DNA of 34,986 nt from an uncultured Pelagibacteraceae bacterium. GTDB taxonomy: Bacteria > Pseudomonadota > Alphaproteobacteria > Pelagibacterales > Pelagibacteraceae. The notes under the pieces were generated by a model. It saw only the letters and a program-made list of their open reading frames with translations. It made no database searches and was not told where the DNA came from. Positions 11,961 to 34,986 of this stretch are shown here, piece after piece. Within the stretch, counting starts at the first letter, position 1, and the number at the start of each line of letters is the position of its first letter. A program made the position numbers and the translations under genes. The stretch spans positions 1-34,986 of the forward strand of contig CACKVV010000008.1 in NCBI GenBank assembly GCA_902603665.1, in the 5' to 3' direction.

Positions 11961-11997
11961 GCAACAATTGATTTTGCTGGTGTGTGGGGATAGTAAA

Positions 11998-12267: not shown

Positions 12268-12292
12268 ATTAACAAAAAAAAGGAGGCTATAA

Positions 12293-12583: not shown

Positions 12584-12591
12584 GTGTAATT

Positions 12592-12978
12592 ATGAAATCA
12601 ATTAAGAAATATATTTTTATATTTTTGAGTTTTACAGTAGTAAACAATGCATATGCTGAAGTTTTAAGTAAGAAAGATACTGAGAAAGCCTTAGATTGTG
12701 TTGGAATATATATGGCTAACTATTTTTTACCATCGGGCGAAACTTTTGAATATAGCATGAAAGAAAAATCAATTTCATCAGCTAAAGTTTGGAAAACATA
12801 TGCAATGGAAACTGGAATTACTGAAGCAGATTGGGATGAAAGAGTTAACAAGGCTGTAGATAAACATTATGGTTCAAAGTACAACAAAGAATTAACCGAC
12901 GATTGCCATGCTTTTTTAGAAAAGACCATACCAAATGGTAAAGAACGTGTTGAGAAGGTTGTTCAAACTTTATATTAA
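12592..12978 (+). CDS. Secreted helical hypothetical protein with two Cys
   Basis: Signal peptide MKSIKKYIFIFLSFTVVNNAYAE; mature part has two Cys (ALDCVG, TDDCHAF). Confidence 0.6.
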   Translation: MKSIKKYIFIFLSFTVVNNAYAEVLSKKDTEKALDCVGIYMANYFLPSGETFEYSMKEKSISSAKVWKTYAMETGITEADWDERVNKAVDKHYGSKYNKELTDDCHAFLEKTIPNGKERVEKVVQTLY

Positions 12979-12989
12979 AATTTCAGGTA

Positions 12990-13277
12990 ATGACTGGTTA
13001 CGTAATTTTTAATATTAAAATTACAAACCCAGAAAATTACAAAGAATATATTGAAAAAGTAAAACCAATCGCAGAGAAATTTGAAGCAGAATATATTGTA
13101 AGAGGTGGAAAATTTGAATTAGTTGAAGGTAAATGGGAACATCCAAGAACTATTGTGATAAAGTTTCCTAGTTATGAGAAAGCTCAGGAGTGGTATAACT
13201 CTGAAGAATATAAACCAATAAAGAAAATCCGTTTAGATAACGCATTATCAAATGGAATAATAATAAGAGGAGAATAA
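12990..13277 (+). CDS. DUF1330 domain protein
   Basis: GYVIFNIKITNPENYKEYIEKVKPIAEKFEAEYIVRGGKFELVEGKWEHPRTIVIKFPSYEKAQEWYNSEEYKPIKKIR is a classic DUF1330 pattern. Confidence 0.88.
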   Translation: MTGYVIFNIKITNPENYKEYIEKVKPIAEKFEAEYIVRGGKFELVEGKWEHPRTIVIKFPSYEKAQEWYNSEEYKPIKKIRLDNALSNGIIIRGE

Positions 13278-13279
13278 AA

Positions 13280-13600
13280 ATGTCAATTTTAGCAAAATAC
13301 AATAAAGCTATGGAGGATAAAGATGAGGCAGCATTAAGAGATATAATTCACGACGATTATACATTTACGATGCATAAATCAGGAACTGTTTTAAAAAAAG
13401 ACGATGTAGTAAAATGGGCAATGAGTGGAGATATCAATAGAGATAAAGTTAGAGTTATATATGAAAATGATGAAATTGGTGTTGAACATGCATTTGTAAC
13501 ATTTAATGATGGAAATAAAGAAGCTGTAATGGCTGTTTTTAAATTTAAGGACGGCAAAGTGTTTGCACTTGAAACTGGTGCAACCCCAATGAACAAATAA
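13280..13600 (+). CDS. SnoaL-like / NTF2-fold family protein (second in cluster)
   Basis: ILAKYNKAMEDKDEAALRDIIHDDYTFTMHKSGTVLKKDDVVKW...AVFKFKDGKVFALETGATPMNK. Confidence 0.75.
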   Translation: MSILAKYNKAMEDKDEAALRDIIHDDYTFTMHKSGTVLKKDDVVKWAMSGDINRDKVRVIYENDEIGVEHAFVTFNDGNKEAVMAVFKFKDGKVFALETGATPMNK

Positions 13601-13626
13601 AATATTAAAAATTTAAAATTTAAATT

Positions 13627-13848
13627 TTGTTTTCAAAAAAATACTCAAACCTATTATTTATAGTTTTAATGGGATGTGGGATGAGTTTCATGATGACCCT
13701 CCTAATAACCTATATTAACACTGGCTTTGATAAAGATTATTTTAAAAGATTTATAACTGCATGGTCTGTGAGTTTTCCAGTTGCAATGATAGCAACCTCA
13801 ATTGTTGCTCCTATAGTTAAAAAAATTGTAGATAAAATCACAAAATAA
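13627..13848 (+). CDS. DUF2798-like membrane protein
   Basis: Two TM helices; FIVLMGCGMSFMMTLLITYINTGF...FITAWSVSFPVAMIATSIVAPIVKKIV. TTG start. Confidence 0.7.
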   Translation: MFSKKYSNLLFIVLMGCGMSFMMTLLITYINTGFDKDYFKRFITAWSVSFPVAMIATSIVAPIVKKIVDKITK

Positions 13849-13864
13849 CAGTTTAATATGATTA

Positions 13865-14461
13865 ATGAATAAAGTTGATTTTTATTTTTCAATTGGAAGT
13901 ACTTATACTTATTTAACAGTTACTAGAGTATTAGATATTGAAAAGAAATTTAATGTAAAATTTAAATGGGTTCCATTTAGTGTAAGAGCAATAATGAAAG
14001 AAATGAACAACATACCTTTTCCAAAAGATAAACAGAATAAAGTTGATTATATGTGGAGGGATATAGAGAGAAGAGCTAAAGGTTATGGTTTTTTTGCAAA
14101 AACTCCTGTGCCTTACCCGTTAAGTGAATTTGATCTAGCAAATAAACTTGCAATATTAGGATTAAAGGAAGGCTGGGGGGTAGATTATGTAAGATTGACT
14201 TACAAGAGATGGTTCCAAGATGGAAAAGAACCAGCTACAGAACCAAATATTTCTGAAATATTTAATGAGCTTAGTTTGGATAAAGAAAAAATTGTAAATA
14301 AAGTAAATTCTCAAGAAATAGAAAAACAATATTTAGAAAACACTGAAAGTGCAAGATCACATAAAATATTCGGAAGTCCTTCTTTCGTTGCGGGTAACGA
14401 AATTTTTTGGGGAGATGATAGAATGGAAGATGCAATAAATTGGTCAAAAAATAATGAGTAA
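13865..14461 (+). CDS. 2-hydroxychromene-2-carboxylate isomerase / DsbA-family (kappa-GST-like) protein
   Basis: VDFYFSIGSTYTYLTVTRVLDIEKKFNVKFKWVPFSVRAIM ... ESARSHKIFGSPSFVAGNEIFWGDDRMEDAINW. Confidence 0.88.
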   Translation: MNKVDFYFSIGSTYTYLTVTRVLDIEKKFNVKFKWVPFSVRAIMKEMNNIPFPKDKQNKVDYMWRDIERRAKGYGFFAKTPVPYPLSEFDLANKLAILGLKEGWGVDYVRLTYKRWFQDGKEPATEPNISEIFNELSLDKEKIVNKVNSQEIEKQYLENTESARSHKIFGSPSFVAGNEIFWGDDRMEDAINWSKNNE

Positions 14462-14789
14462 TTTAAATGCATATGTATATTTAATTATAGCTGTAATTTT
14501 AGGAACAGCGTCCAATCTTTTTGCAAAAAGTGCTCAAGGTTTTACTCTATTAATTCCAAGTATTTTAACTGCAATTACAATTGTTGGCTGTATGTTTACA
14601 CTTTCACTTGTAATGAAATCAATTTCTGTTGGAGTTACTTACGCATCATTTGCAGGATTGTGTATTATAGCAACAAGTGTAGTAGGAGTTTTAAAATTTA
14701 ATCAAATTCCAAATTTTACAACTATCATTGGTTTATTATTAATAATTGCTGGTGTTTTAATTGTAAATCTCTTAGGTAACACAAAATAA
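14454..14789 (+). CDS. Small multidrug resistance (SMR)/EamA-like membrane protein
   Basis: 4-TM 111 aa protein; LIIAVILGTASNLFAKSAQGF and YASFAGLCIIATSVVGVLKFNQIPNFTTIIGLLLIIAGVLIVNLLG. Confidence 0.75.
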   Translation: MSNLNAYVYLIIAVILGTASNLFAKSAQGFTLLIPSILTAITIVGCMFTLSLVMKSISVGVTYASFAGLCIIATSVVGVLKFNQIPNFTTIIGLLLIIAGVLIVNLLGNTK

Positions 14790-15350
14790 TTACCATGAAG
14801 AATTGGGTTGATCTAAAAACTCAATTTCTTCAGCTGTAGATCTTCTTCCTAACATTTTATTTCTGTGAGGATATCTATGAAATCTTTTAATCACCGCCGT
14901 ATGATCTTTCCAAAATTTTTTAATTTCTAAAAAATTTGGATGATTTGATAGATAATTTGTTAATAACTTGTATGCTCTATCGTGATCGATAATTTCTTCA
15001 CTATGAATATATGGAAGTAACATAAAAAATCTTTGATATTCATCCATTTGATCAAGATATCCATTGTAAACAGCATCGTTTACAATCAATCTTGCTTTAA
15101 AATCATATTCAAAAGACTTTTTATCATTTCGATAAAGGTTTCTCGAAAACTGATCCAATAAAATAATTAAAGCTAAACAAGTTAACGGCTCATCTTGCCA
15201 ATAATCATATTCATTTGAAATAGCTTTATTGTGATCTTCTCCAAATTTTTCTCTGATTAACTGATCAAATTTTTCATCTTTTTTAAATTTTTTCTCAACT
15301 ATTAGGTCATCAAACCAGAAATCTAGGATTGCTTGAGCTCTATCATTCAT
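14790..15350 (-). CDS. DUF924 family protein
   Basis: ILDFWFDD...FDQLIREKFG...LALIILLDQFSRNLYR...FFMLLPYIHSE; characteristic DUF924. Confidence 0.9.
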   Translation of the reverse strand: MNDRAQAILDFWFDDLIVEKKFKKDEKFDQLIREKFGEDHNKAISNEYDYWQDEPLTCLALIILLDQFSRNLYRNDKKSFEYDFKARLIVNDAVYNGYLDQMDEYQRFFMLLPYIHSEEIIDHDRAYKLLTNYLSNHPNFLEIKKFWKDHTAVIKRFHRYPHRNKMLGRRSTAEEIEFLDQPNSSW

Positions 15351-15735
15351 AAATTTCGTCTACTTTAACTTGATATGACTCAACTAATTTATTTGTTTCA
15401 TTTGCCATTCCAACTACTGCGTTAAGTTCAGCAAGCATATCTTTTGATGCTCCTTTCTTGATTGCAGCAGAACTATGAGATTTTATGCAATATTCACAGC
15501 TATTTGTAATTGAAACAGCAATATAAATTAATTCTTTTGTCATCTCATCTAAAGCACCTTTTTTCATTACTTGCTGCAATGAATTCCAAGTTCTCTCTAA
15601 AGTTTCTGGCTCATTAGCTAACATTTTCCAAAAATTGTTTACTGACTTTATGTTTCTTTTTTGTTTAATGTCCTCATATATTTCTTTTACTTTTCCAGTA
15701 GCTTCGTTTTCTTCAATCATATTAAATATCGCCAT
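15343..15735 (-). CDS. Carboxymuconolactone decarboxylase / AhpD-like family protein
   Basis: ELIYIAVSITNSCEYCIKSHSSAAIKKG contains CxxCxxxH; 8-nt overlap with the DUF924 gene. Confidence 0.9.
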   Translation of the reverse strand: MAIFNMIEENEATGKVKEIYEDIKQKRNIKSVNNFWKMLANEPETLERTWNSLQQVMKKGALDEMTKELIYIAVSITNSCEYCIKSHSSAAIKKGASKDMLAELNAVVGMANETNKLVESYQVKVDEIYE

Positions 15736-15744
15736 ATCTCCTCC

Positions 15745-17427
15745 TTAGTTATAAATAGTCTCAATTTTTGGCATTAGTCTTAATAATTCTTTTGTATATT
15801 CATGTTTAGGCTTTTCAAATAATTCCTCAGTATTTGAAATTTCACATAATTTTCCATCTCTCAAAACACCTATCCTATCACACATTTGTCTAACAACTGG
15901 TAAATCATGGCTAATGAATAATATTGTAAGATTAAGTTGTTCTTGTAGATCCTTAAGTAAATTTAATATTTGTGCTTGAATACTTACATCTAATGCGGAA
16001 GTTGGTTCGTCACATACTAATAATCTAGGTTGAGTGGCTAAAGCTCTCGCAATTGATATTCTTTGTCTTTGACCACCAGAAAATTCATGTGGGTATCTCT
16101 CTGCTGAACTTTGAATTAGTTCTACAGAGTCTAATAAATCATAAATATAGTTTTTTAAATCTAGTTTAGAAATTTTTGGATTATGGAGAAGTATAGGTTC
16201 AGCAATTATATCTTTGACTTTTAATCTGCTATTTAAAGAGGAATAAGGATCTTGAAAAATCATTTGTATTTGTTTTCTGAATTGAAGCATTTCACGATTA
16301 TTTTTAATTTTGGTAATACAATTTTCATCAAAATATATCTCTCCAGAAGTTGGTTTGAATAAGTTAACAATCATTTTTGCTATTGTTGATTTTCCACTTC
16401 CACTTTCTCCAACCAAACCAAATATTTCTCCCTCTTTAATATTAAAAGAAACATCATTTACAGCCATTACACTATTTTTCGAATTTTCTGTGAAGAAATT
16501 ATCGTCAAAAGTTTTTAAAAGATTTTGAACACTTACTAAATTTTTATTTTGAATAGTTCTTTTAGTCCACCTATTTAAGATTTTAAGATTTGCTTCTTGA
16601 TTATTTTTATTTTCTTTATCTAGTATAATAAATCTAGATATTTTTTTATTTGTTGGAGGAACTGAACTGACTAAGCTCATTGTATATGATTGTTTTGGAT
16701 TAGTTAAGATTTTCTTTGTCTCTCCAATTTCTACAAGTTCGCCATTTTTCATCACAGCTACTCGATCTGTTGTTTCGGCAATTACACCCATGTCATGTGT
16801 AATAAGTATAACTGCTAGATTTCGATTTTTAGTTAAATTCTTTATTAATTCTAAAATTTGAGATTGTATAGATACATCTAGAGCTGTGGTAGGTTCGTCA
16901 GCTATAAGAAGTTCGGGCTCACAACAAAGTGCAAGAGATATAACAACTCTTTGTCTCATACCTCCAGAAAACTGATGTGGGTAATTATTAAATCTTTTTT
17001 CCGCATCTTGAATTCCTACTTCTTTTAATAACTTAATTGCTTTATTTTTTGCATCCTCGTTACTTAACTTTATATGAGTTTGAATAGTTTCAATGAGTTG
17101 TTCTCCGATTGTTATTATTGGATTTAAAGAGGTTTGAGGATCTTGAAATATTAATCCAATTTTTTTTCCTCTAAAATTTGTAAAATTTTGATTATCTTGA
17201 TGAATATTTATATCACCAAGAATAATAGACCCATTTGAAACTCTCCCTGGCTCATCAATAAGATTAATGATTGCGTTACCTATGGTACTTTTGCCTGATC
17301 CAGACTCTCCAACTAAACCTAGAATTTCTCCTTTATTTACATCTATATTTACATTTTTTGCTGCATACACGGTCTCTCTTCTCATTTTATAGTCTACTGA
17401 TAGGTTCTGTATTTTTAAAAAACTCAT
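15745..17427 (-). CDS. Dipeptide/oligopeptide-type ABC transporter, fused duplicated ATP-binding protein (DppD-DppF fusion)
   Basis: Two full ABC cassettes: GESGSGKST twice, QFSGGMRQRV and EFSGGQRQRI signatures, LLIADEPTTALD and LLVCDEPTSALD Walker B. Confidence 0.95.
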   Translation of the reverse strand: MSFLKIQNLSVDYKMRRETVYAAKNVNIDVNKGEILGLVGESGSGKSTIGNAIINLIDEPGRVSNGSIILGDINIHQDNQNFTNFRGKKIGLIFQDPQTSLNPIITIGEQLIETIQTHIKLSNEDAKNKAIKLLKEVGIQDAEKRFNNYPHQFSGGMRQRVVISLALCCEPELLIADEPTTALDVSIQSQILELIKNLTKNRNLAVILITHDMGVIAETTDRVAVMKNGELVEIGETKKILTNPKQSYTMSLVSSVPPTNKKISRFIILDKENKNNQEANLKILNRWTKRTIQNKNLVSVQNLLKTFDDNFFTENSKNSVMAVNDVSFNIKEGEIFGLVGESGSGKSTIAKMIVNLFKPTSGEIYFDENCITKIKNNREMLQFRKQIQMIFQDPYSSLNSRLKVKDIIAEPILLHNPKISKLDLKNYIYDLLDSVELIQSSAERYPHEFSGGQRQRISIARALATQPRLLVCDEPTSALDVSIQAQILNLLKDLQEQLNLTILFISHDLPVVRQMCDRIGVLRDGKLCEISNTEELFEKPKHEYTKELLRLMPKIETIYN

Positions 17428-24305: not shown

Positions 24306-25013
24306 TTATCCAAAATTTCCAAGTACAGGGATATACTCTAAAAGATAAAAACCTAATGCCTGTAATTGGTTGGTTATCATCAATATTCCTGTAATTAACA
24401 AAAGTCCACCACCAATTTTGGAAATAAGTTGCATCTTATTTTTTAAATTTTTTGAAAAAATCATAAATCTTTGAATAAGATATCCAGATAAAACGAAAGG
24501 TATTGCTAAACCTAGTGAATAAAAAAATAATAATAATACTCCTTTGTTTATACTATCTTCAACTGCAGCTAAAGCCAAGATAGATCCAAGTATTGGACCT
24601 ATGCATGGTGTCCATCCAAAACCAAAAGCCATACCAATTAAAATAGATCCAAAATTACTTGGTGTGATATTTGAATGCACTCTTTTTTCATAGTTTAAAA
24701 ATTTAATATTAATTAATCCAATTATCTGAAGAGAGAAAATTATAATAAATATTCCTGCAATAATTCTTAATTCATAAGAGTAGTCTAAAACTAATGATCC
24801 CAGAAATGTAGCAGTTGCTCCAAAACTAATAAATACAATTGAGAAACCCAATGAAAATAGAATTATTGGAAAAATGTTTGTTTTCTTACTTTCCAAAAGT
24901 TCATTTAAGGAGCTACCAGAAATATAGGATACATAGCCTGGTATCAAAGGCAAAACACACGGTGATAAAAAACTGATTAAACCTGCGCTTAATGCAATAA
25001 AAAGTTCTAACAT
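24306..25013 (-). CDS. ccdA: Cytochrome c biogenesis protein CcdA family
   Basis: ALSAGLISFLSPCVLPLIPGYVSYISG and GMAFGFGWTPCIGPILGSILALAA. Confidence 0.93.
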   Translation of the reverse strand: MLELFIALSAGLISFLSPCVLPLIPGYVSYISGSSLNELLESKKTNIFPIILFSLGFSIVFISFGATATFLGSLVLDYSYELRIIAGIFIIIFSLQIIGLINIKFLNYEKRVHSNITPSNFGSILIGMAFGFGWTPCIGPILGSILALAAVEDSINKGVLLLFFYSLGLAIPFVLSGYLIQRFMIFSKNLKNKMQLISKIGGGLLLITGILMITNQLQALGFYLLEYIPVLGNFG

Positions 25014-27697
25014 TATCCAGTATTTTTCATTGCTGCAGAAATACCGGCTATCGAAGTTAACAATGCATCATTTAAATTCTTTTTATTTTCTTTACCTTTG
25101 GTTATTTTTAGCTTTGATATAACAATTGGCTGAATAACATTGAGTACCTCTGTGTAAATATTTCTTGCAACGATAATATTCCTAAATTGTTTTCTGGAAT
25201 TAATTATTTCTTTAGGAGTTATTTTTTTATTTAATTTTTTTATTGTTTCAAATTGGTATCTTAATTTTTTACCAATCCTTATAAGTTTATGATCTGCTAA
25301 ATATTTTTCATAAACCTTTGATATTTCTGGATCAACCTTTGAAATGACCATATCTAGGATATCTAACATTGAATTAAAAAATGGCCAATTTCTTTCCATG
25401 TCTAGAAGAGTACTTTTAAATTTTTTAATTGAAGAATATCTTAATGCCTCTGCGCTACCTAACCACGCTGGTAACATAAGTCTTATTTGAGTCCACGCAA
25501 ATACCCAAGGTATTGCTCTTAAGCTTTTTATATTGTCTACATTTTTTCTCTTAGATGGTCTTGATCCAATTAAGAGTTTGCCTAAAGACACATGTGGTGT
25601 CACTGTTTTAAAATATCTAATAAAATCAGAATTTTGATTAATATTTTTTCTATATGAGCTTTTTGAAATATCTGACATTTTTTCAATTAAATCTCTCCAG
25701 TTCTTTTTTGGTGCAGGTGGAGGATTAAGAGTTGCCTCTGTAACAGCCCCTATATAACTGCATAAGTTATATTTAGCTAATGGCTCATAACCATATTTTT
25801 GCTGTATAACTTCTCCCTGATCTGTAATTCTTATTTTGCCATTAACAGAGTATGGAGGTTGAGACCTAAGTGTGGCTTGTATTGGACCGCCTCCTCTACC
25901 AGCTGAGCCACCTCTACCATGAAAAAAAGTTACATCGATTTTATATTTTTTTGCAAGTTTAACTATTTCTTCTTGTGCTTTATATTGATGCCAACTTGCG
26001 CATATTTTACCAGCATCTTTACTGGAATCTGAGTAACCAATCATCACTTCTTGTTTGTTATTTATTAATTTTCTGTACCATTTTTCTTGAAAAAGTGAGT
26101 GCATAATGGCTTTTGAGTTTATTAGATCGTCCAAAGTTTCAAATAATGGAACAACTCTTAATTTATTTTTGATTTGCGCTTCTTTTTGTAAAAATGAGAC
26201 GGTTACTATGTCAGAAATAGACGAGGTCATTGAAATGACATATGCTCCAAGGCATTCATCTGGTTGTTTAGAGATTGTTTTGAAAGTTAACCAAACTTCT
26301 TTATTTTCTTTATTTTTAAATTCAAAATTAGTTAATAAGTTTCTCTTCTTTTTAATTTGATTTGCTAAAAAATTAATTTTTTTCCTTTCGCTCCATTTAT
26401 AATAGTTTTGTTGATATTTACTTTTTATATATTCTGCAATTAATTGGGAGTGTCTGGATGACTCTTGTCTTATATCTAATCTAGCAAGATTTATTCCAAA
26501 ACATTTTGCTCTTCTCATTAAATCCAATAATTCACCACTTGCTAAATTTTCATTTTGGTTTTCTTCCAAAGATTTTCTAACAACTCTTAATGGTTTTAAA
26601 ATTTCTTCTCGTGAATTTAGCAACATTTCTTCATTCAATGGTTTGTTGTAAACTAAATGTTGTTCTATGGATCTGTGAGTAATTCTCATTTTGTCTCTGA
26701 GCGGACGTAAATAAACTCTATAGGGTTCAAATGACTCGCCAGTTTTTTTTTTAATCTCTTTTGAGCATTTTCCCATTGAATAAGATCTAATTAATTTTGT
26801 TAAAGATTTTTCATACAATTTTGCTGCCTCCCATCGAGATAATAAAATTACTTCTTTAGTCACATCTGCAGTTACATTTGGGTTACCATCTCTATCTCCA
26901 CCCATCCAAGATCCAAATTCAATTGGATTAAAATTTTTTGGAAGACCCTTGCCCATGTTTTTAACAAAAATGCTATTTAATCTCCTGTATACCTTCGGAA
27001 TAGTTTCCCACAAACTATCCTCAATTATAGCAAGTCCCCATCTTGCTTCGTCAAATGGAGAAGGCTTTGTTCTCTTCAAGTCATCTGTATTCCATATAAT
27101 TGTAATTTCATCATATAATTTTCTATCTATAATTTTTTGTTTTGAGGGGAAACTTTTCATCAATTCTCTTTGTTCTAAAAGTTCTGTAATATTGTGATAT
27201 TTTTGTATAAGTGTTCGTCTTTTTACCTCTGTAGGATGTGCTGTTAATACAATACCAATATTTAAATTTTTTGCAGTATTGTAGATTTTATTAGATGAAA
27301 TTTTTCTATCCTTAAAAAGTTCCTCAAAAATTTCCTCTATAAAAATATTTTTGTTTGCTTTAACTTTATTATTCTCGAATTCATTTAAAGTTCTTGAAGC
27401 ATCAATAGATTCTGCAAGATTTATAAAATTCATAAAATGAGAAAATGCCCTTGTAATTTTATAAGTATTATTTGGACTAATTTGACTTAATGTTTTCGAA
27501 ATTTTTTTGTATGAGTCTTTTTGTTTAATATTAGGTCTATTTGCTTTTGAAAGGTTTCTTATTTTTTCAACAAGATTAAAAAAAGTCTGTCCCTCTTGCT
27601 TTTTAATAACATTTCCCAGTATGTTTCCAAGAAGTCTTACATCATCTCTGAGGGATTTTGTTGGAATCCTCTCATAATATAAATCCCTTTTAATCAT
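25013..27697 (-). CDS. ppc: Phosphoenolpyruvate carboxylase
   Basis: VLTAHPTEVKRRT, GSWMGGDRDGNPNVT, MIGYSDSSKDAGKICASW, FFHGRGGSAGRGGGPIQATLRSQP. Confidence 0.97.
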   Translation of the reverse strand: MIKRDLYYERIPTKSLRDDVRLLGNILGNVIKKQEGQTFFNLVEKIRNLSKANRPNIKQKDSYKKISKTLSQISPNNTYKITRAFSHFMNFINLAESIDASRTLNEFENNKVKANKNIFIEEIFEELFKDRKISSNKIYNTAKNLNIGIVLTAHPTEVKRRTLIQKYHNITELLEQRELMKSFPSKQKIIDRKLYDEITIIWNTDDLKRTKPSPFDEARWGLAIIEDSLWETIPKVYRRLNSIFVKNMGKGLPKNFNPIEFGSWMGGDRDGNPNVTADVTKEVILLSRWEAAKLYEKSLTKLIRSYSMGKCSKEIKKKTGESFEPYRVYLRPLRDKMRITHRSIEQHLVYNKPLNEEMLLNSREEILKPLRVVRKSLEENQNENLASGELLDLMRRAKCFGINLARLDIRQESSRHSQLIAEYIKSKYQQNYYKWSERKKINFLANQIKKKRNLLTNFEFKNKENKEVWLTFKTISKQPDECLGAYVISMTSSISDIVTVSFLQKEAQIKNKLRVVPLFETLDDLINSKAIMHSLFQEKWYRKLINNKQEVMIGYSDSSKDAGKICASWHQYKAQEEIVKLAKKYKIDVTFFHGRGGSAGRGGGPIQATLRSQPPYSVNGKIRITDQGEVIQQKYGYEPLAKYNLCSYIGAVTEATLNPPPAPKKNWRDLIEKMSDISKSSYRKNINQNSDFIRYFKTVTPHVSLGKLLIGSRPSKRKNVDNIKSLRAIPWVFAWTQIRLMLPAWLGSAEALRYSSIKKFKSTLLDMERNWPFFNSMLDILDMVISKVDPEISKVYEKYLADHKLIRIGKKLRYQFETIKKLNKKITPKEIINSRKQFRNIIVARNIYTEVLNVIQPIVISKLKITKGKENKKNLNDALLTSIAGISAAMKNTG

Positions 27698-27716: not shown

Positions 27717-28559
27717 CTATACTAGTACAACTTTGGAGTTTTGTTCTCCCAAATTATCAACTGATAATCTCATTTTATCACCAGCTTTCAGAAATTTTTG
27801 TGGCTTCATTCCCATACCAACTCCAGGGGGAGTTCCAGTAGTTATAATATCCCCTGGATGTAAAGACATAAATTTACTCAAATATGAAACAATTATATTC
27901 ACATTAAAAATCATGGTGTTTGTGTTGCCAGTTTGCATTCTTTCACCATTTAAATCCAAAGACATATTTAAATTATTCACATCAGAAATCTCATCTTTAG
28001 TAACCAAATATGGGCCAATTGGACCGTAGGTATCATGTGATTTTCCTTTAACCCATTGACCCATTTTTTCTATTTGCCATTCTCTTTCGCTGACATCATT
28101 TACCAAACAATATCCCAAAATATGATCTTGAGACTGATTTTCAGAAATATGTTTGGTATGTTTTCCAATGACTACTCCCAATTCAACTTCCCAATCAAGT
28201 TTTTTCGAGTCTTTAGTAATTTCTATATCGTCATTTGGTCCGTTTATACAACTAGTTGCCTTCATAAATACTATGGGTTCAGTAGGAGGTTTTGCTCCAG
28301 TTTCAGCTGCGTGATCAGAAAAATTTAATCCAATAGCAACAAATTTACCTGGGTTTGTAATACATGAGCCAATTCTTTCGTTTGAGGATAGCTCTGGTAG
28401 TGAAGATAACTCTAAACTTTGTAATTTTGTAATAGTATTAAAATTTAAATGATCAGGTTTTAAATCTTGAACATGTGAACTTATATCTCTGATCTTGCCA
28501 TCTTTGTCCATTGCGGCTGGTTTTTCATTTCCTTTTTTTCCAATTCTTAATAGTTTCAT
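27717..28559 (-). CDS. Fumarylacetoacetate hydrolase (FAH) family protein, likely 2,4-diketo-3-deoxy-aldonate hydrolase type
   Basis: CITNPGKFVAIGLNFSDHAAETGAKPPTEPIVFMKATSCINGPNDDIEI, DWEVELGVVIGK, GPIGPYLVTKDEI, PGDIITTGTPPGVGMGMKPQKFLKAGD. Confidence 0.9.
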   Translation of the reverse strand: MKLLRIGKKGNEKPAAMDKDGKIRDISSHVQDLKPDHLNFNTITKLQSLELSSLPELSSNERIGSCITNPGKFVAIGLNFSDHAAETGAKPPTEPIVFMKATSCINGPNDDIEITKDSKKLDWEVELGVVIGKHTKHISENQSQDHILGYCLVNDVSEREWQIEKMGQWVKGKSHDTYGPIGPYLVTKDEISDVNNLNMSLDLNGERMQTGNTNTMIFNVNIIVSYLSKFMSLHPGDIITTGTPPGVGMGMKPQKFLKAGDKMRLSVDNLGEQNSKVVLV

Positions 28560-28578
28560 TCTATCTCCATCAATATTA

Positions 28579-29439
28579 TTAAAAATAGTTTTTAATCTCT
28601 TTAAATAAGTAACTATGATCTAAGTTATTATAACCTTTTTTTGATAGTTGTTTATATATATTTCTTATAATCTTTGAAAGTGGTAGATTTAAATTATTCA
28701 TTTTTGCTGTAATTAAAATATTTTCCATATCTTTCAATTGTGAAGATACTTTCCCTCTAGGTCTAAAATCATTATTTATCATTCTTAATCCATGTGTTTG
28801 CAATATTTTACTATCAGCCCATCCTCCTTCTAAGGCCTTTAAAACATTTTTTAAATTTAAACCTAGTTTCTTACATAATATAATTGCCTCTGATACCGCA
28901 CCAATAGTGATACCAACAATGATTTGGTTTGCTAATTTGGTAGCCTGACCAGAGGATGATTTTCCTACATAATTTGGATTTCCAAAAATCTGTAAAACTT
29001 TTAAGTTTTTTTTAAATATTCTTTTATCTCCACCAACCATTATGGCAAGGCTAGCATCCTCGGCTCCTTTAGTGCCTCCAGAAACAGGGGCATCTAAGAA
29101 ATAAACTCCTAAATTTTTTAATTTTTTATAGTTATTTAAAGCTGTAATTGGTTTTGTTGAGCTCATGTCTATTACTGTTGTTTTTTTATTTATGTTTTGA
29201 AGAAATTTTTTACTACTGATTATTTGATTTACTGCTTTATCATCGGTTAACATTGTGATAATCACATCTTTGTCCTTAACTAATTGATCAATACTTAAGG
29301 ATACAATTGCTCCATATTTTCGAAGTTTTTGAGCTTTTTTTATTGTTCTATTGAAAATACTTATCTTATTTTTAGATTTTAATAAGTTTTTGATCATTGG
29401 AACGCCCATTAATCCAGTTCCAATGAAGCCAATTTTCAT
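28579..29439 (-). CDS. NAD(P)-dependent beta-hydroxyacid dehydrogenase (3-hydroxyisobutyrate DH / tartronate semialdehyde reductase family)
   Basis: MKIGFIGTGLMGVPMIKNLLK Rossmann, FLDAPVSGGTKGAEDASLAIMVGG, GQATKLANQIIVG. Confidence 0.93.
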   Translation of the reverse strand: MKIGFIGTGLMGVPMIKNLLKSKNKISIFNRTIKKAQKLRKYGAIVSLSIDQLVKDKDVIITMLTDDKAVNQIISSKKFLQNINKKTTVIDMSSTKPITALNNYKKLKNLGVYFLDAPVSGGTKGAEDASLAIMVGGDKRIFKKNLKVLQIFGNPNYVGKSSSGQATKLANQIIVGITIGAVSEAIILCKKLGLNLKNVLKALEGGWADSKILQTHGLRMINNDFRPRGKVSSQLKDMENILITAKMNNLNLPLSKIIRNIYKQLSKKGYNNLDHSYLFKEIKNYF

Positions 29440-30189
29440 TTAATAAGTAGCTCTTCCCCCACTTAAATCAAATACAGCTGCTGTTGAAAAAGAATTTTCC
29501 TCGCTTGAGAGCCACGTTACCAGTGATGCTAATTCCTCTACTTTTGCAAATTTATTTCTTGGAATTTTTGATAACATATAATCAATATGTTCTTTGGTCA
29601 TTTGATCAAAAATTCTTGTCTTTGCAGCTGCAGGTGTAACACAATTAACTGCTATATTTTTTTGAGCTAATTCTTTTCCTAAAGATTTTGTTAGTCCGAT
29701 AACGCCTGCTTTTGATGTGCTATAGGCTCCAGCATTAGGGTTTCCCTCTTTTCCAGCAATTGAAGAAATATTTACAATTCTACCGTAATTTTGTTTAATC
29801 ATGTAAGGAACAACAGCTTTGCAGCAGTAAAAAACCGCATTCAAATTTAAATTAATAACTTTTTTCCACTCGTCTGTTGGGTAATCAGCAATTGTTGCAT
29901 TCATTCCAGTAATTCCAGCATTGTTTATAAAAATATCTATTTTGCCATAAGAATTCTCAATTTGTTTTAATGTTTTTTCAATATCATTAAAATTATTAAC
30001 ATCTACATTTTGATAAGAGCAATTTTCATTATTCAATTTTTTTAAAGCATCATTAGCTTCCTTCTCATCAATATCCCAAATCAAAACTTTAGCACCTGAG
30101 GCCAAAAATTTTTCAGTAATAGCAAAGCCAAAACCTTGGGCTCCTCCAGTTACTATTGCAACTTTATTTTTTAAATCAAAATTAATCAT
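29440..30189 (-). CDS. SDR-family oxidoreductase, similar to 2-keto-3-deoxy-L-rhamnonate/fuconate-type dehydrogenases
   Basis: AIVTGGAQGFGFAI, INNAGITG, NISSIAGKEGNPNAGAYSTSKAGV; C-terminus FDQMTKEHIDYMLSKIPRNKFAKVEELASLVTWLSSEENSFSTAAVFDLSGGRATY. Confidence 0.92.
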   Translation of the reverse strand: MINFDLKNKVAIVTGGAQGFGFAITEKFLASGAKVLIWDIDEKEANDALKKLNNENCSYQNVDVNNFNDIEKTLKQIENSYGKIDIFINNAGITGMNATIADYPTDEWKKVINLNLNAVFYCCKAVVPYMIKQNYGRIVNISSIAGKEGNPNAGAYSTSKAGVIGLTKSLGKELAQKNIAVNCVTPAAAKTRIFDQMTKEHIDYMLSKIPRNKFAKVEELASLVTWLSSEENSFSTAAVFDLSGGRATY

Positions 30190-31652
30190 ATTTTTTTCTT
30201 TTTAATTAACGGAAAACCTAAAGCAATTAAAGATAAAATAAAAAATATAAGTACAATCGGTCTTTGGAAAAACATAAGCCAGTTTCCCTCAAATATGACT
30301 AATGACTGCCTTAAAGTTCCCTCTACAAGTTCTCCAAGAATTAATCCAATAATAACGGGAACTACAGAAAAACCATATCTTCGCATAAAAAAACCAATAA
30401 CTCCAAAAAGCAACATTATCCAAACATCTGTCAAAGACTGGCTTAAAGAATAAGTGCCACAAACAGAAATTGCAAAAATCATTGGCCATAATAATTTATT
30501 TGGTACTAAAGTAATTCTAGCAAATAATTTAGCTCCAAAGAAACCTAGTATAAAAAAAAGTATGTTAGCGATTAACATTGATCCAAATATTCCATAAAGG
30601 AATTCTGGTTGTTCTCTAAAAAGATCTGGGCCTGGTCTTACTCCATGAATAATTAAACCGGTTAATATAACTGCTGTTGTAGCACTACCTGGAATTCCTA
30701 ATGCAAGTGTTGGTACCATAGCACCTCCAGTTGCGGCATTATTTGCAGCTTCAGCTCCAGCAATTCCTTCTATAGACCCTTTTCCAAAATCTTCTGGTTT
30801 TTTTGACCATCTTTTAGCCTCAGAATATCCTATTAAAGATGCAACTGTTCCACCTTCAGCAGGTAAAACTCCTATAAACGAACCTATTCCACTCGACCTA
30901 AGAATGGTTTTCCACGTCTTTTTATAATCATCTTTTGTAGGAAGTTTTACTGCTTTTAATGCAACTCTGTTAAATACCTGATTTAAAAGCGTAGATTGAG
31001 TTAACATCTCGCTAATTGCAAATAAACCAACAACAACTGGAATAAAACCAATTCCCTCAGTTAATTCATTTATTCCAAATGTAAATCTATCAATTGATGT
31101 CATAAAATCTTTACCTACTGTTGAAATTAAAATTCCAAAAGCTCCGGCAATTAAATTTTTAATTGGGCTACCTTCACCAATAGAGGCAAGCATTGTTAAA
31201 CCAAATATTGCTAAAGCAAAGTATTCTGGTTGTCCAAATTCATAAGCTAATTGTGCTAAAAGTGGCGCAAAAAATATAAGAACTAAAACACTAATTAATC
31301 CACCAACAACACTTGAAACGGTTGCCATTCCTAATGCTCTTCCAGCTTCTCCTTTTTGTGCTAATGGATAACCATCTAAACAGGTGGCAGCTGCAGCAGG
31401 AGTTCCAGGGGTGTTAATTAAAATTGCAGTTATTGCACCACCATAAGTCCCAGCACAATATATAGCAGTTAATAAAACTATTGCTGATATTGGATCTAGT
31501 GTCATTGTAAAAGGCAAAATTAATGCTCCGCCCGTTGTTGGCCCTAAACCAGGTAAAACACCTAGAACCAATCCAAATAAAGTACCAAGAAATAAAACTA
31601 TTAAAAGTTTAGAACTAAATAAAGGTGCAAGAATAAAAGATAAGTTTTCCAT
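30186..31652 (-). CDS. tctA: Tripartite tricarboxylate transporter large membrane subunit (TctA family)
   Basis: LFGLVLGVLPGLGPTTGGALILPFT, CAGTYGGAITAILINTPGTPAAAATCLDGYPLA, GIPGSATTAVILTGLIIHGVRPGPDLF. Confidence 0.95.
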   Translation of the reverse strand: MENLSFILAPLFSSKLLIVLFLGTLFGLVLGVLPGLGPTTGGALILPFTMTLDPISAIVLLTAIYCAGTYGGAITAILINTPGTPAAAATCLDGYPLAQKGEAGRALGMATVSSVVGGLISVLVLIFFAPLLAQLAYEFGQPEYFALAIFGLTMLASIGEGSPIKNLIAGAFGILISTVGKDFMTSIDRFTFGINELTEGIGFIPVVVGLFAISEMLTQSTLLNQVFNRVALKAVKLPTKDDYKKTWKTILRSSGIGSFIGVLPAEGGTVASLIGYSEAKRWSKKPEDFGKGSIEGIAGAEAANNAATGGAMVPTLALGIPGSATTAVILTGLIIHGVRPGPDLFREQPEFLYGIFGSMLIANILFFILGFFGAKLFARITLVPNKLLWPMIFAISVCGTYSLSQSLTDVWIMLLFGVIGFFMRRYGFSVVPVIIGLILGELVEGTLRQSLVIFEGNWLMFFQRPIVLIFFILSLIALGFPLIKKKKI

Positions 31653-32159
31653 TTAGCTATAATATAAATCTGTAATTATTCCAGAAGGAAATCTTAATCC
31701 TAAAATGGTTTCGAAAAAGATAAATACAATTATAGGAAATAAAATACTTACAAATAAAATAAATATTAATCTCCTTTCTCCCCAAAAATAGGAGACAATT
31801 GCTGAAAGTAACGAAATTCCTAAAAAAAAATCTAAAAATTTTGAAACAAATAAAAATAAAAGAAAACATCCTAGTGTAATATAGAATTCTGTTGGGAGTT
31901 TCTTTTCTTCCTTCCAAGATTTTTTAATAGATAGAAAAAAAATTATTAATGTTAAAGATATTATTAATAACAATAATGCTTTTGGAAAAGTTGCAGGTTG
32001 TATTCCTCGATTTAAAATTGGCGGAACAATATCAAAAGTAAAAGTAATATATAAAAGTATCGAGGATATTAAAATAATGATAAATGAAACAATAGTTGAA
32101 TCTTTAAAAAAAAAGGGCAAGCTACTGCCTGCCCTTTTTTTATTACGTACATTACTCAT
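31653..32159 (-). CDS. tctB: Tripartite tricarboxylate transporter small membrane subunit (TctB family)
   Basis: Four-TM protein between tctA and tctC with FPKALLLLIISLTLIIFFLS. The N-terminal boundary is uncertain (see terminator-like hairpin). Confidence 0.85.
   Translation of the reverse strand: MSNVRNKKRAGSSLPFFFKDSTIVSFIIILISSILLYITFTFDIVPPILNRGIQPATFPKALLLLIISLTLIIFFLSIKKSWKEEKKLPTEFYITLGCFLLFLFVSKFLDFFLGISLLSAIVSYFWGERRLIFILFVSILFPIIVFIFFETILGLRFPSGIITDLYYS
32106..32141 (-). terminator. Rho-independent terminator/attenuator-like hairpin downstream of tctC, inside the 5' end of the tctB ORF
   Basis: Minus strand: AAAAAAAGGGCA-GGCAGTAGCT-TGCCCTTTTTTTTT, i.e. a GC stem (GGGCA/TGCCC) flanked by A and T tracts, about 39 nt after the tctC stop. 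Confidence 0.75.
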
Positions 32160-32179
32160 TTGTAAATGTACTAATTTCT

Positions 32180-33154
32180 TTAGTTGATATAACCCAAAGC
32201 TTTTAATTGAGCAGTCATTTCAGCAAGCATCTCTTCCATTTGCTTACCCCACTCATCTGCACCTACAACACTTGTGTCGTCCAATCCAATTTCAGTTAAG
32301 AAATTTTTATAGTAATTGTGGCTCATAGCTTTTAGCATTCCAGTCTCTAATTGTTTTACTCTATCTGCTGGAGCACCTTTCTTAGTTACAAAACCTCTAA
32401 CAGTAGATAAAGAAACAGGAATACCGAGTTCTTTTGCTGTTGGGGAGTCACCAATTTTAGCCATTCTATTATTTGCAAGAACTACTGAAACACAAAGTTT
32501 ACCCTCATTAATTTCAGTCAAAGCCTCTCCTAAATTTAAAACACCTACATCTATATCTCCTTTAATTAGGTTTGTTTTTATTGGAGCCACACCTTTGTAA
32601 GCAACAATGGTTGGATCCTTTAATCCACCTTTTTTTGTAAATGCTATTGCACTTACGTCATCAATACCACCTGTGTGCGTTGTACCATATTTCAAAGATT
32701 TTGATTTTTGTGTGCTAATAAATTTTTTAGCATCTTTGATGTCGTTATTGCAGTTTACAACAAATAGCTGAGGATCGTCAGTTCCTCTTGCTAGAGGCTG
32801 CATATCACTCAATTTAACTTTCGTTTTTCCTAATGCCATTGATACAGCGTGACCAGTAGTCCAAGTTAAAGTGTGATTTCCATCTGCGGGTAAAGACATC
32901 ATGTAATCCATAGATGCAGCTCCACCGCCACCTTTTTTATTAACTAATTGCATGTCTTGTTTTAAAACTCTTCTTGCTCTTAACAACATCATTCTAGTAG
33001 TAACATCTGTTCCACCACCAAAACCAGCGTGGGTAATTGCTTGTATTGGATGACCATCTGCTTTTGCAGACGTAATCATTAATGGAAGAGCAACAATAAA
33101 AAATTCTGTTACTACAAAAGCTGCAGCTAAGAATAATTTAAAACTTTTTTTCAT
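32180..33154 (-). CDS. tctC: Tripartite tricarboxylate transporter substrate-binding protein (TctC/Bug family)
   Basis: Signal peptide; ITHAGFGGGTDVTTRMML, VNKKGGGGAASMDYMMSLPADG, GDIDVGVLNLGEA. Confidence 0.93.
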   Translation of the reverse strand: MKKSFKLFLAAAFVVTEFFIVALPLMITSAKADGHPIQAITHAGFGGGTDVTTRMMLLRARRVLKQDMQLVNKKGGGGAASMDYMMSLPADGNHTLTWTTGHAVSMALGKTKVKLSDMQPLARGTDDPQLFVVNCNNDIKDAKKFISTQKSKSLKYGTTHTGGIDDVSAIAFTKKGGLKDPTIVAYKGVAPIKTNLIKGDIDVGVLNLGEALTEINEGKLCVSVVLANNRMAKIGDSPTAKELGIPVSLSTVRGFVTKKGAPADRVKQLETGMLKAMSHNYYKNFLTEIGLDDTSVVGADEWGKQMEEMLAEMTAQLKALGYIN

Positions 33155-33223
33155 TATTTCCCTCTTAAGTTAATTTATATTTAAATATTTAATCATAATC
33201 TGTTAGAAACAGTAAGAGAAAAG

Positions 33224-34216
33224 ATGACAAATAAGAAAAAAAATATTGCTTTATTGCTAGGAGATCCATCCGGTATTGGACCAGAACTTATATCAAAACT
33301 TTTGACCCAAAAAGAGCTAGCGAACGCAAACATCACTGTAATTGGTGAAAAAAATATTCTAAATTCTGGAGACAAAATTACAGGAAATAACTCGGACCTA
33401 GAAATTGTTACTGATTTTGATGAAATAAATTTTGATAAAAAAAATAAATATTTTTTAGATATCTCTAAAGGTAACAACAAAGATTATAATTTATCTGAGT
33501 GCTCCGCAGAATCTGGAGAAACAGTTTTAAATGCATTAAATTTAGCACTAGAACTTGCGAAGGAGAAAAAAATTGATGCTATTAATTTTGGTCCTTTTAA
33601 CAAGACAAGTTTAAAACTAGGTGGGTGTAAATTTGATGACGAATTACATCATATGGCTGATAAGTTAAACGTTAAAAGTTTTTTTTGCGAGTTTAATGTT
33701 GTAGATAATTTTTGGACTGCTCGAGTTACATCTCATATACCTATAAAAGAAGTTTCAGAACACATTAAGAAAGATAAAATAATGGAACCTATAAAATTGA
33801 TTAATGAAGCAATGAAGTTAAATGGTATAGAAAATCCAAGAGTTGCAGTTCAAGCTCTTAACCCTCATGCAGAGTTTGGCAATGAAGAAAAAGATGAGAT
33901 AATCCCAGCAATAGAGGAAGCCAAAAAACTTGGTATTAATGCTGATGGTCCTTTGCCATGTGATACTTCTTTTATTACAGCATTTAAAAATAAAAATCAT
34001 GATTGTATTGTTGGAATGTATCATGATGCTCTTCAATCTGGACTAAAGGCTTTTGGATTTGATAGAGGAGTAACGGTTCAAGGTGGTCTTCCAATTCCAA
34101 TTACAACACCTGCGCATGGAACCGCGTTTGATATCGCTGGAAAAAATCAGGCAAAATTAGAACCAACTTTGAATTCATTTAAGATTGCATTAAGAATGGC
34201 TGAAAATAAAAATTAA
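33224..34216 (+). CDS. PdxA family protein (4-phospho-threonate/4-hydroxythreonine-4-P dehydrogenase family; PdxA2-like by context)
   Basis: IALLLGDPSGIGPELISKLL, DELHHMADKLN, ARVTSHIPI, ALNPHAEFGNEEKDEIIPAIE, DGPLPCDTSF, VGMYHDALQSGLKAFGFDRGVTVQGGLPIPITTPAHGTAFDIAG. Confidence 0.92.
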   Translation: MTNKKKNIALLLGDPSGIGPELISKLLTQKELANANITVIGEKNILNSGDKITGNNSDLEIVTDFDEINFDKKNKYFLDISKGNNKDYNLSECSAESGETVLNALNLALELAKEKKIDAINFGPFNKTSLKLGGCKFDDELHHMADKLNVKSFFCEFNVVDNFWTARVTSHIPIKEVSEHIKKDKIMEPIKLINEAMKLNGIENPRVAVQALNPHAEFGNEEKDEIIPAIEEAKKLGINADGPLPCDTSFITAFKNKNHDCIVGMYHDALQSGLKAFGFDRGVTVQGGLPIPITTPAHGTAFDIAGKNQAKLEPTLNSFKIALRMAENKN

Positions 34217-34234
34217 AATGAATTTATAAAAAAA

Positions 34235-34986
34235 ATGACAAAAATTAAAGAAATAAGAACAAAAGTTTATCAATGGAATGGTAAAACAGTTCCTCCACAA
34301 AATAATTTTTGCACAAATGCATCAGATTTACTTTATGAAAAATCAGATGCAATGGGTTCTTTCAGATTTCATGAATGGTTAATTTGTGAAGTAGAAACAG
34401 ACGAAGGTACTATAGGAATTGGTAATGCCGCTCTTGCTCCTCAATTAGTAAAAAAAACAATAGACACATATCTTGCACCTTTAGTTGTTGGAGAGGATCC
34501 ATTTGATTTTTCATATATTTGGGAAAAAATGTATAGAAGAACGCACGCATGGGGGAGAAGAGGTTTGGGCATGGTTGCTATATCTGCAGTTGATATAGCT
34601 TTATGGGATATTTTAGGTAAATTAACGAATAAACCAGTATTTAAATTATTGGGTGGAAGAACTAAGGAAAAAATTCCGGTTTATGCATCAAAGCTTTATT
34701 CCCAACCAATCAAAAATTTACAGCAAGAAGCTGAGAATTATAAAAAACAGGGTTTTAAAATGTTTAAAATGAGATTTGGCTGGGGGCCAAAAGATGGGTC
34801 AGAGGGAATGAAAAAAAACATAGAGTTAGTTGAGGCTGTAAGAGAAGTTATTGGTTATGACACAGATTTAATGTTGGAATGTTACATGGGCTGGAATTTA
34901 GATTATTCAAAAAGAATGATACCGCAGTTGGTGAAATATAACCCTAGGTGGTTAGAGGAGCCAGTAATTGCTGATGATGTAAATGG
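34235..34986 (+). CDS. Mandelate racemase/muconate lactonizing enzyme (enolase superfamily) dehydratase, partial (3' end beyond window)
   Basis: My translation from ATG 34235 is open to the window edge: [69 protein letters not shown]...[41 protein letters not shown]...[13 protein letters not shown]...[13 protein letters not shown]...WLEEPV. Missing from the ORF track because no stop is present. Confidence 0.9.

Follow-up and report, generated by a model that had tools for sequence, protein, structure and literature searches.

One section of the L-ascorbate catabolic pathway converts 2-carboxy-L-lyxonate to L-lyxonate and then to L-2-keto-3-deoxypentonate (L-KDP). The L-ascorbate pathway of Ralstonia eutropha H16 was reportedly described by Stack and colleagues in 2020, and the L-lyxonate pathway of Pseudomonas aeruginosa is said to have been described by Ghasempur and colleagues in 2014; we take these two studies to be the source of the decarboxylase role of PdxA and of the lyxonate dehydratase role used below. 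The lower arm of these pathways consists of a KDP dehydratase and a ketoglutarate-semialdehyde dehydrogenase (KGSADH) and leads to ketoglutarate. Without enzymes, diketogulonate undergoes rearrangement to 2-carboxy-L-pentonate, which slowly loses CO2 to yield L-lyxonate (PMC11066805, PMC6225978). In the Route III pentose pathway of Herbaspirillum huttiense (Watanabe et al. 2019, PMC6336799), an SDR 4-dehydrogenase and an FAH-family hydrolase act on 2-keto-3-deoxypentonate, and this route converts L-KDP to pyruvate and glycolate. Marine SAR202 bacteria encode a nearly complete ascorbate pathway with an enolase-superfamily enzyme, and their growth is enhanced by ascorbate (PMC10444878). Here, we compare these systems with a gene cluster from SAR11; no other heterotroph group is as abundant in the surface ocean (PMC12636525). 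We found no description of the cluster in SAR11 in the literature searched.

Gene content and conservation of the locus

The sequence analyzed, a 34,986-nucleotide window (G000:C8:1-34986), runs up to the point where a SAR11 contig ends. The cluster comprises two runs of genes on opposite strands, separated by a 69-bp gap (33155..33223) that gene coordinates and sequence suggest to be a putative divergent promoter region. The minus-strand run encodes TctC, the periplasmic receptor (32180..33154; PF03401, 70 bits); TctB, the small permease subunit (31653..32159; PF07331, 46 bits); TctA, the large permease subunit (30186..31652; PF01970, 536 bits), whose gene overlaps by 4 bp that of an SDR (29440..30189; adh_short, 205 bits); a HIBADH-family dehydrogenase (6-phosphogluconate/3-hydroxyisobutyrate/tartronate-semialdehyde-reductase family; 28579..29439; PF03446 and PF14833); and an FAH-family hydrolase (27717..28559; FAA_hydrolase, 233 bits, 2.8e-69). 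On the plus strand, the gene for a PdxA-family enzyme (33224..34216; PF04166, 255 bits) ends 18 bp upstream of an MR/MLE dehydratase gene (34235..34986; MR_MLE_N, PF02746, 75 bits; MR_MLE_C, PF13378, 70 bits), which the contig end truncates at residue 250. A search found no further copy. Full-length orthologues from other SAR11 bacteria have 391 amino acids, and the window fragment is 98% identical to one of these (L014:10001-11176). The initial annotation had named the FAH, SDR, TctABC, and dehydratase genes, all at the correct coordinates and borne out by strong Pfam matches, and had correctly read the SDR C terminus as SGGRATY, which we see in the translation; its inventory overlooked the HIBADH-family and PdxA-family genes.

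We scored gene neighborhoods on 80 SAR11 contigs, counting each gene only where the contig had room for it. The PdxA gene adjoins the dehydratase gene in all 76 such loci, TctC is present in 74 of 74 and TctA in 68 of 68, and the SDR gene lies beside TctA in 65 of 68, an arrangement that is far from chance. FAH is less regular, with no more than 23 of 59 loci having it at a distance of up to 10 kb. In the SAR11 genus g12, the run TctC-TctB-TctA-FAH-SDR stands divergent to GntR-PdxA-dehydratase, and these genomes contain no KGSADH; a GntR regulator occurs in some SAR11 clusters as it does in Rhodobacterales clusters. The dehydratase was found in 44 of 397 SAR11-family genomes and in about a quarter (33 of 140) of the near-complete ones. 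Because FAH is common across SAR11 (39 of 53 near-complete genomes), its genome-level co-occurrence with the dehydratase, which is not above the SAR11 background, is not significant alone, and we leave it out of the argument. One 97% complete genome (G127) has the dehydratase and no FAH, and in some SAR11 genomes (G063, G088, G054, G047, G060, and G066) PdxA occurs but the dehydratase does not.

The dehydratase and its PdxA partner

In our phylogenetic tree, the dehydratase falls within one 34-sequence clade, apart from RhmD and from a SAR11 paralogue; the SAR11 sequences are monophyletic within it (support 0.99), and its distant members are 57 to 73% identical. Identity reaches 72.6% with the dehydratase of Ruegeria pomeroyi, which is encoded beside PdxA, YncE, DHDPS, and SMP-30. 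The pairing of PdxA with this dehydratase clade is conserved in Alpha- and Betaproteobacteria; of about 25 distant loci, most have the two genes side by side or a short distance apart. Many of these loci also carry ascorbate-pathway markers (YncE, SMP-30, cytochrome b561, and amidohydrolase genes), including YncE and SMP-30 in Ruegeria (L133) and Phaeobacter (L136), YncE with an amidohydrolase and SMP-30 in Paraburkholderia (L138), b561 with SMP-30 and YncE in Sphingomonas (L139), b561 in Variovorax (L137), and YncE with an amidohydrolase in a further locus (L164). Judged by sequence, the dehydratase belongs to the clade of ascorbate-type clusters, and the locus resembles the R. eutropha H16 and P. 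aeruginosa pathways both in this pairing and in PdxA motifs.

The initial annotation had tied its reading to the dehydratase active site and to the characterized rhamnonate enzymes. In the active site, the metal ligands E215/E241/E267 and the catalytic Asp-His dyad D290/H317 are conserved in full-length orthologues, of which the window covers residues 1-250. The kinship with rhamnonate dehydratases failed, since on the RhmD model, the nearest in NCBIfam, the dehydratase scores 227.5 bits versus a cut-off of 393 and lies outside the RhmD clade; a true RhmD control, from the plasmid-borne LRA/RhmD cluster of Ketogulonicigenium robustum (L156), scores 719.5 bits and is 32% identical to the SAR11 enzyme.

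We reject a role for the PdxA-family enzyme in PLP synthesis on its score on the PLP-pathway model TIGR00557 (225 bits versus a cut-off of 290) together with a separate PdxA, about 31% identical, in most near-complete SAR11 genomes. The window protein shares with dehydratase-linked PdxAs the clade motifs D-E-L-H and T-P-A-H-G, which replace the canonical ones; D-E-[LH] and TPAHG also recur in the distant dehydratase-linked copies, and the overall identity of SAR11 PdxA to the Rhodobacterales and Burkholderiales PdxAs is only about 40 to 44%. Because PdxA pairs with the dehydratase in ascorbate-type clusters, the substrate reading shifts to 2-carboxy-L-lyxonate or L-lyxonate.

Transport and the lower arm

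Genes for TctC and TctA also accompany this dehydratase in Rhodobacterales and in other bacteria. A YncE-like enzyme for the benzilic acid rearrangement was found in 0 of 99 SAR11 genomes, with a query that recovered the Paraburkholderia, Ruegeria, and Phaeobacter copies at 44 to 48%, and the amidohydrolase-family lactonase had no close match in the SAR11 genomes searched (best 27% identity). A complete ascorbate pathway in SAR11 is thus unsupported. Since SAR11 is without YncE, TctABC probably imports 2-carboxy-L-lyxonate or L-lyxonate, so that the SAR11 cluster, unlike the ascorbate pathway, would be fed by a transporter. Among distant clusters, YncE is absent from about 5 that have TctA and present in 6 of about 20 others, a suggestive pattern in numbers that are too few.

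The FAH-family protein scores 397 bits on the diketo-deoxyrhamnonate hydrolase model NF053535 (cut-off 500), on which the FAH of a true RhmD operon reaches only 408, and its closest PDB entry is an L-2,4-diketo-3-deoxyrhamnonate hydrolase (8gsr). It carries the hydrolase dyad His83-x-x-Glu86, the same His/Glu dyad as hydrolase C785_RS20550 (PMC6336799). An AraD1-type KDP dehydratase is a less likely identity for it, given its hydrolase family, this dyad, and the occurrence of AraD1 as a separate protein in SAR11 genome G022. From shared gene order only, we propose the SDR as the L-KDP 4-dehydrogenase: in the K. robustum cluster, an SDR of the same subfamily (57% identical) sits between RhmD and an FAH (54% identical), with TctABC beside the MR/MLE dehydratase, although that cluster has no PdxA.

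Other lower arms follow the same core in relatives, namely DHDPS and KGSADH in Rhodobacterales and AraD1 and KGSADH in G022, a genome with no FAH. The KDP dehydratase and KGSADH arm of the ascorbate and lyxonate pathways is absent from the window, and KGSADH is absent from 15 of 16 SAR11 genomes, G022 being the sole exception; most SAR11 have SDR and FAH instead. A PdxA and lyxonate dehydratase core joined to three lower arms in related bacteria would be a clean case of module swapping. Route II has been described as pentose-specific (PMC11199699), and the ketoglutarate-semialdehyde modules of relatives fit a C5 pentonate substrate rather than a 6-deoxy C6 acid.

A proposed route and its alternatives

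We assign a probability of roughly two in three to the reading that SAR11 carries here a shortened form of the lower L-ascorbate route, with an SDR and FAH ending. The sequences show directly which genes are present, how they are ordered and conserved, to which clades they belong, which active-site residues they encode, and which other lower modules relatives have; from this, we infer all substrates, all reactions, and the transport ligand. TctABC would import an ascorbate-derived sugar acid, likeliest 2-carboxy-L-lyxonate (a dicarboxylate) or L-lyxonate, bound by TctC. The PdxA-family enzyme, as a 2-carboxy-L-lyxonate decarboxylase, would produce L-lyxonate by removing the additional carboxyl group, and the MR/MLE enzyme, a candidate L-lyxonate dehydratase, would convert the L-lyxonate to L-KDP. 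The SDR could oxidize L-KDP at C4 to 5-hydroxy-2,4-dioxopentanoate (2,4-diketo-3-deoxypentonate), which the FAH-family enzyme, as the corresponding hydrolase, would cleave to pyruvate (C3) and glycolate (C2). The FAH gene need not always be clustered: because D- and L-KDP yield the same achiral diketo acid, one FAH could serve other nonphosphorylative sugar clusters of the same cells.

A pentonate is thus the probable substrate, with pyruvate and glycolate as the probable products. Organic-acid import, as initially annotated, is retained, and the order dehydratase, SDR, FAH (Route III) is probably right, given the FAH dyad, the placement of SDR and FAH inside the g12 TctCBA operon, and the position of the SDR subfamily between RhmD and FAH elsewhere. 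Its deoxy-hexonate substrate is not sustained by the RhmD score, the PdxA-paired clade, or the pentonate-type modules in relatives, and PdxA points away from cleavage to C3 units only. The cluster is most likely a novel variation on known ascorbate chemistry and not a rhamnose/fucose pathway. A Route III ending is not known to have been described for the ascorbate pathway. H. huttiense processes pentoses via other dehydratases (PMC6336799), whereas SAR11 would use an imported acid with PdxA and the MR/MLE enzyme. SAR202 is likewise a marine oligotroph with an enolase-superfamily enzyme, but it belongs to another phylum with large paralogue expansions, and the TctABC/PdxA/SDR/FAH arrangement is not described there (PMC10444878).

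Two alternatives are about equally unlikely. A TTT-fed L-rhamnonate/L-fuconate Route III cluster yielding pyruvate and lactate, as initially annotated, would suit the nearest relatives of the FAH, the match of SDR and FAH subfamilies to the genuine RhmD-SDR-FAH and TctABC locus of K. robustum, and the choice of RhmD as nearest model; the dehydratase nevertheless falls well below the RhmD cut-off, the C5 modules of relatives do not fit, and the rhamnonate/fuconate route has no place for PdxA. For fuconate, the SDR reads Ala-Gly-Ala-Tyr and lacks the counterpart of FucF Arg148 (PMC11199699), which would stand three residues ahead of the catalytic Tyr and which a fucose-cluster control SDR (L155) possesses. 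Alternatively, the core from PdxA to L-lyxonate dehydratase might be kept while an unlinked aldolase or dehydratase cleaves the keto acid and the neighboring SDR and FAH serve another sugar branch. FAH is indeed not always near the dehydratase and also occurs in clusters with a xylose-dehydrogenase-like SDR, an IlvD-type dehydratase, another SDR, and an SMP-30 lactonase, but the place of the SDR beside TctA in 65 of 68 loci, the g12 operon, and the restriction of KGSADH to G022 among 16 SAR11 genomes argue against such a split.

We consider it very improbable that PdxA acts on a 4-phosphorylated tetronate of the D-threonate/D-erythronate type, with the dehydratase acting on an unrelated acid sugar. 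PdxA2 (2hi1) and D-threonate-4-phosphate dehydrogenase (6e85) are among its best PDB relatives, yet it scores 170 bits on the D-threonate-4-phosphate dehydrogenase model versus a cut-off of 583, D-E-L-H replaces the GHTE stretch of phosphate-using PdxAs (a literature search gave no confirmation of the phosphate residues), and the required four-carbon-acid kinase (PF07005, DUF1537) is missing from all 16 SAR11 genomes tested while present in three controls and G470.

Within the ascorbate-type reading, we tentatively suggest that SAR11 feeds on nonenzymatic decay products of the vitamin C of other organisms. TctABC might import 2-carboxy-L-lyxonate as such, the upstream ascorbate enzymes would therefore be dispensable and have been dropped, and the Route III ending would give CO2, pyruvate, and glycolate. 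Ascorbate decay products would then join the known diet of SAR11 as a dissolved-carbon source, given a specific, testable substrate. The crystallized enzymes 3SSZ, 3STP, and 3SQS, which are without an assigned function and for which we found no discussion in the literature searched, would likewise gain a testable one. The HIBADH-family protein scores 243.6 bits on the tartronate semialdehyde reductase model TIGR01505 (cut-off 340), and its gene adjoins FAH in all 23 loci with FAH nearby; it may take part in the further metabolism of C2/C3 units derived from glycolate.

Gene content of the locus and identity of the dehydratase

The source genome is that of a SAR11 bacterium (Pelagibacteraceae; 740 kb, 58% complete), and the right edge of the window is the end of its contig. 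Here, a tight minus-strand run leads from TctC (32180-33154) through TctB, TctA, an SDR (29440-30189), and a 3-hydroxyisobutyrate-dehydrogenase (HIBADH)-family protein (28579-29439) to an FAH-family hydrolase (27717-28559). No gap in this run exceeds 20 bp, and one pair of genes overlaps, by 4 bp. Across a 69-bp divergent gap, a PdxA-family gene (33224-34216) starts a plus-strand pair completed 18 bp further on by an MR/MLE dehydratase gene (34235-34986), which runs for 250 codons before the contig ends. The best model for the HIBADH-family protein is tartronate semialdehyde reductase, with a score below the cut-off. Directly downstream of FAH lies a PEP carboxylase gene (25013-27697), which adjoins FAH in many further SAR11 arrangements. 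The four gene classes named in the initial annotation (TctABC, SDR, FAH, and dehydratase) are all present, but the HIBADH and PdxA genes had been overlooked, and PdxA proves decisive for the interpretation.

The full-length dehydratase is nearest to the solved, function-unassigned structures 3SSZ, 3STP, and 3SQS (664-695 bits), with rhamnonate dehydratase (RhmD) structures far behind at 204 bits. On the RhmD model it scores 227 bits versus a cut-off of 393; a genuine RhmD scores 719. In our tree, the SAR11 dehydratases are monophyletic (support 0.99) and share one clade with copies from Rhodobacterales, Sphingomonas, and Burkholderiales, with RhmD and a SAR11 paralogue falling outside.

A conserved core with ascorbate-type company

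Scanning public genomes, we found the dehydratase at 88-98% identity on 80 SAR11 contigs, and it occurs in 44 of 397 SAR11-family genomes (33 of the 140 near-complete ones). Counting only contigs that leave room for the gene in question, PdxA adjoins the dehydratase in 76 of 76, TctC is present in 74 of 74 and TctA in 68 of 68, and the SDR adjoins TctA in 65 of 68. FAH lies within 10 kb of the dehydratase in 23 of 59, every time with HIBADH beside it. The core is therefore TctABC-SDR and PdxA-dehydratase, and FAH plus HIBADH is a movable addition. The two nearest relatives retain the full gene order of the window, with an aldehyde dehydrogenase after the dehydratase; in other SAR11 the core sits amid sugar modules (ROK kinase, UgpBAE, ribokinase, FucU, ABC, IolD).

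On annotated plasmids, PdxA is almost always near dehydratases of this clade, together with neighbors that vary by member: a YncE family protein, SMP-30/gluconolactonase, cytochrome b561, amidohydrolase, a DHDPS family protein, and ketoglutarate semialdehyde dehydrogenase (KGSADH). A panel search of genomes across the phylum gave the same picture. We take these to be the genes with which Ralstonia eutropha H16 catabolizes L-ascorbate. In this organism's pathway, the b561 protein reportedly oxidizes ascorbate, gluconolactonase opens the product, the WD40-like (YncE) protein rearranges it to 2-carboxy-L-lyxonolactone, an amidohydrolase opens this lactone, and a PdxA-family enzyme decarboxylates the acid to L-lyxonate. 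The L-lyxonate then reportedly enters the L-lyxonate pathway, made up of an MR/MLE dehydratase, a KDP dehydratase, and KGSADH. The ascorbate steps are reportedly from Stack et al. 2020, and the lyxonate steps from Ghasempur et al. 2014. The ascorbate pathway has been described, with citation of both these papers, as requiring an enolase-superfamily enzyme (PMC10444878).

From SAR11 to Burkholderiales, dehydratase-linked PdxAs carry two motifs: D-E-(L/H/M), in most cases with His next, and T-P-A-H-G. The corresponding residues are x-T-E and S-P-D-H-G in canonical SAR11 PdxA, and G-H-T-E and S-(A/V)-D-H-G in phosphate-using PDB relatives. The G-H-T stretch presumably binds the substrate phosphate, so its absence is consistent with a substrate that carries no phosphate. 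The histidines of TSH, NPH, and YHD, which we take to be metal ligands, are retained. The PF07005 kinase needed by D-threonate-type PdxA2 was found in none of 16 SAR11 genomes tested.

A query that recognizes YncE of other classes (44-48% identity) found it in 0 of 99 SAR11 genomes, and no close lactonase turned up in the SAR11 genomes that carry the core, so the pathway in SAR11 should start at or after 2-carboxy-L-lyxonate. Distant clusters bearing TctA, small in number, likewise have no YncE. Diketogulonate converts non-enzymatically to 2-carboxy-L-pentonate, a free dicarboxylic acid that slowly decarboxylates to L-lyxonate (PMC11066805, PMC6225978). The tricarboxylate-type TctABC is a reasonable putative carrier of this dicarboxylate.

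A swapped lower arm

Oxidation at C4 turns D- and L-2-keto-3-deoxypentonate (KDP) into one achiral diketo acid. Three endings follow the one core: a DHDPS family protein with KGSADH, in Rhodobacterales and others; AraD1 with KGSADH, in one SAR11 genome, G022 (gene order TctC-TctB-TctA-PdxA-dehydratase, accompanied by AraD1 and a divergent KGSADH), AraD1 occurring also in Sphingomonas; and the SDR with FAH, in the majority of SAR11. The last is exemplified by an operon in SAR11 genus g12 (L103; TctC 11652-12626, TctB, TctA 13161-14657, FAH 14668-15501, SDR 15494-16261), from which GntR, PdxA, and the dehydratase diverge. Among the SAR11 genomes tested, KGSADH was found in G022 only, and FAH was not found there. 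The first two endings yield ketoglutarate, and the ketoglutarate-yielding Route II is pentose-specific (PMC11199699); the dehydratase product should therefore be 2-keto-3-deoxypentonate. L-Lyxonate and L-arabinonate lead to the same L-KDP, since C4 alone remains chiral.

L-KDP is converted to pyruvate and glycolate by an SDR (C785_RS20555) and an FAH (C785_RS20550, catalytic His83 and Glu86) (PMC6336799), and the window FAH carries exactly this pair. The module logic of the initial annotation is supported, and its reaction order, SDR oxidation followed by FAH cleavage of the 2,4-diketo acid (Route III), is thus probably right. Its rhamnonate- or fuconate-type substrate and its products are probably wrong, the second product probably being glycolate rather than lactate or another C3 unit. 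Our best reading, to which we give roughly two chances in three, is that in SAR11 TctABC feeds a 2-carboxy-L-lyxonate/L-lyxonate pathway that ends by Route III. On this reading, the SAR11 cluster is a variant, not previously known, of a known pathway.

FAH is widespread in SAR11, being present in 39 of the 53 near-complete genomes, so only its operon position counts as evidence. Other SAR11 clusters combine an FAH of this kind with a sugar ABC transporter, two SDRs (one of them xylose-dehydrogenase-like), an IlvD-type dehydratase, and an SMP-30 lactonase, and most FAH-bearing genomes hold a single FAH. An FAH shared between sugar branches would explain its loose linkage to the core. Second non-phosphorylative sugar clusters of SAR11 (L105, L107, L108, L111, L112, and L114), often adjoining PEP carboxylase, variously combine UgpBAE, FAH, and the SDR, dehydratase, and lactonase types just named.

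The SDR belongs to a subfamily ending in SGGRATY, whose solved members (9jve, 9kq1, 6d9y) have no assigned function. A 57%-identical SDR in Ketogulonicigenium lies between a true RhmD and FAH, with TctABC adjoining, and other subfamily members adjoin MR/MLE genes or FAH. By gene context only, the SDR is a candidate L-KDP 4-dehydrogenase. A FucF-type assignment was rejected, as the Arg148 equivalent, present in a fucose-cluster control, is missing.

Related loci with other arrangements

Two SAR11 loci (L095 and L096, genomes G063 and G088) retain PdxA-TctABC-SDR with an SDR gene in place of the dehydratase; altered PdxA motifs in L095 (DELQ, TTAHGSAFAIA) suggest a changed or decaying function. 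PdxA without the dehydratase also occurs in four genomes of genus g9, where at L098 and L099 the dehydratase-linked type stands without TctABC or dehydratase; close by is a membrane protein of 786-798 aa that resembles a fused TRAP permease.

In a 1.6-Mb alphaproteobacterium (G306; L132, 9549-12668), amidohydrolase, PdxA, and dehydratase stand in a row with no transporter or lower arm recognized, as if the pathway were entered at the lactone. Near the core, L128 (14983-18819) and L159 have another TctABC set next to an amidohydrolase, perhaps for the lactone 2-carboxy-L-lyxonolactone. On Marinovum algicola plasmid pMaD4 (L134), dehydratase, DHDPS, and KGSADH are flanked by two sulfatase-plus-sugar-ABC sets with no PdxA nearby, so this module also serves another feed. 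The Ketogulonicigenium robustum plasmid locus (L156, NZ_CP019938.1, 5807-12559), with RhmD (719 bits), SDR, and FAH, and a 2-hydroxyacid dehydrogenase plus TctABC on the opposite strand, is likely a TTT-fed rhamnonate Route III cluster of the kind first proposed for the window.
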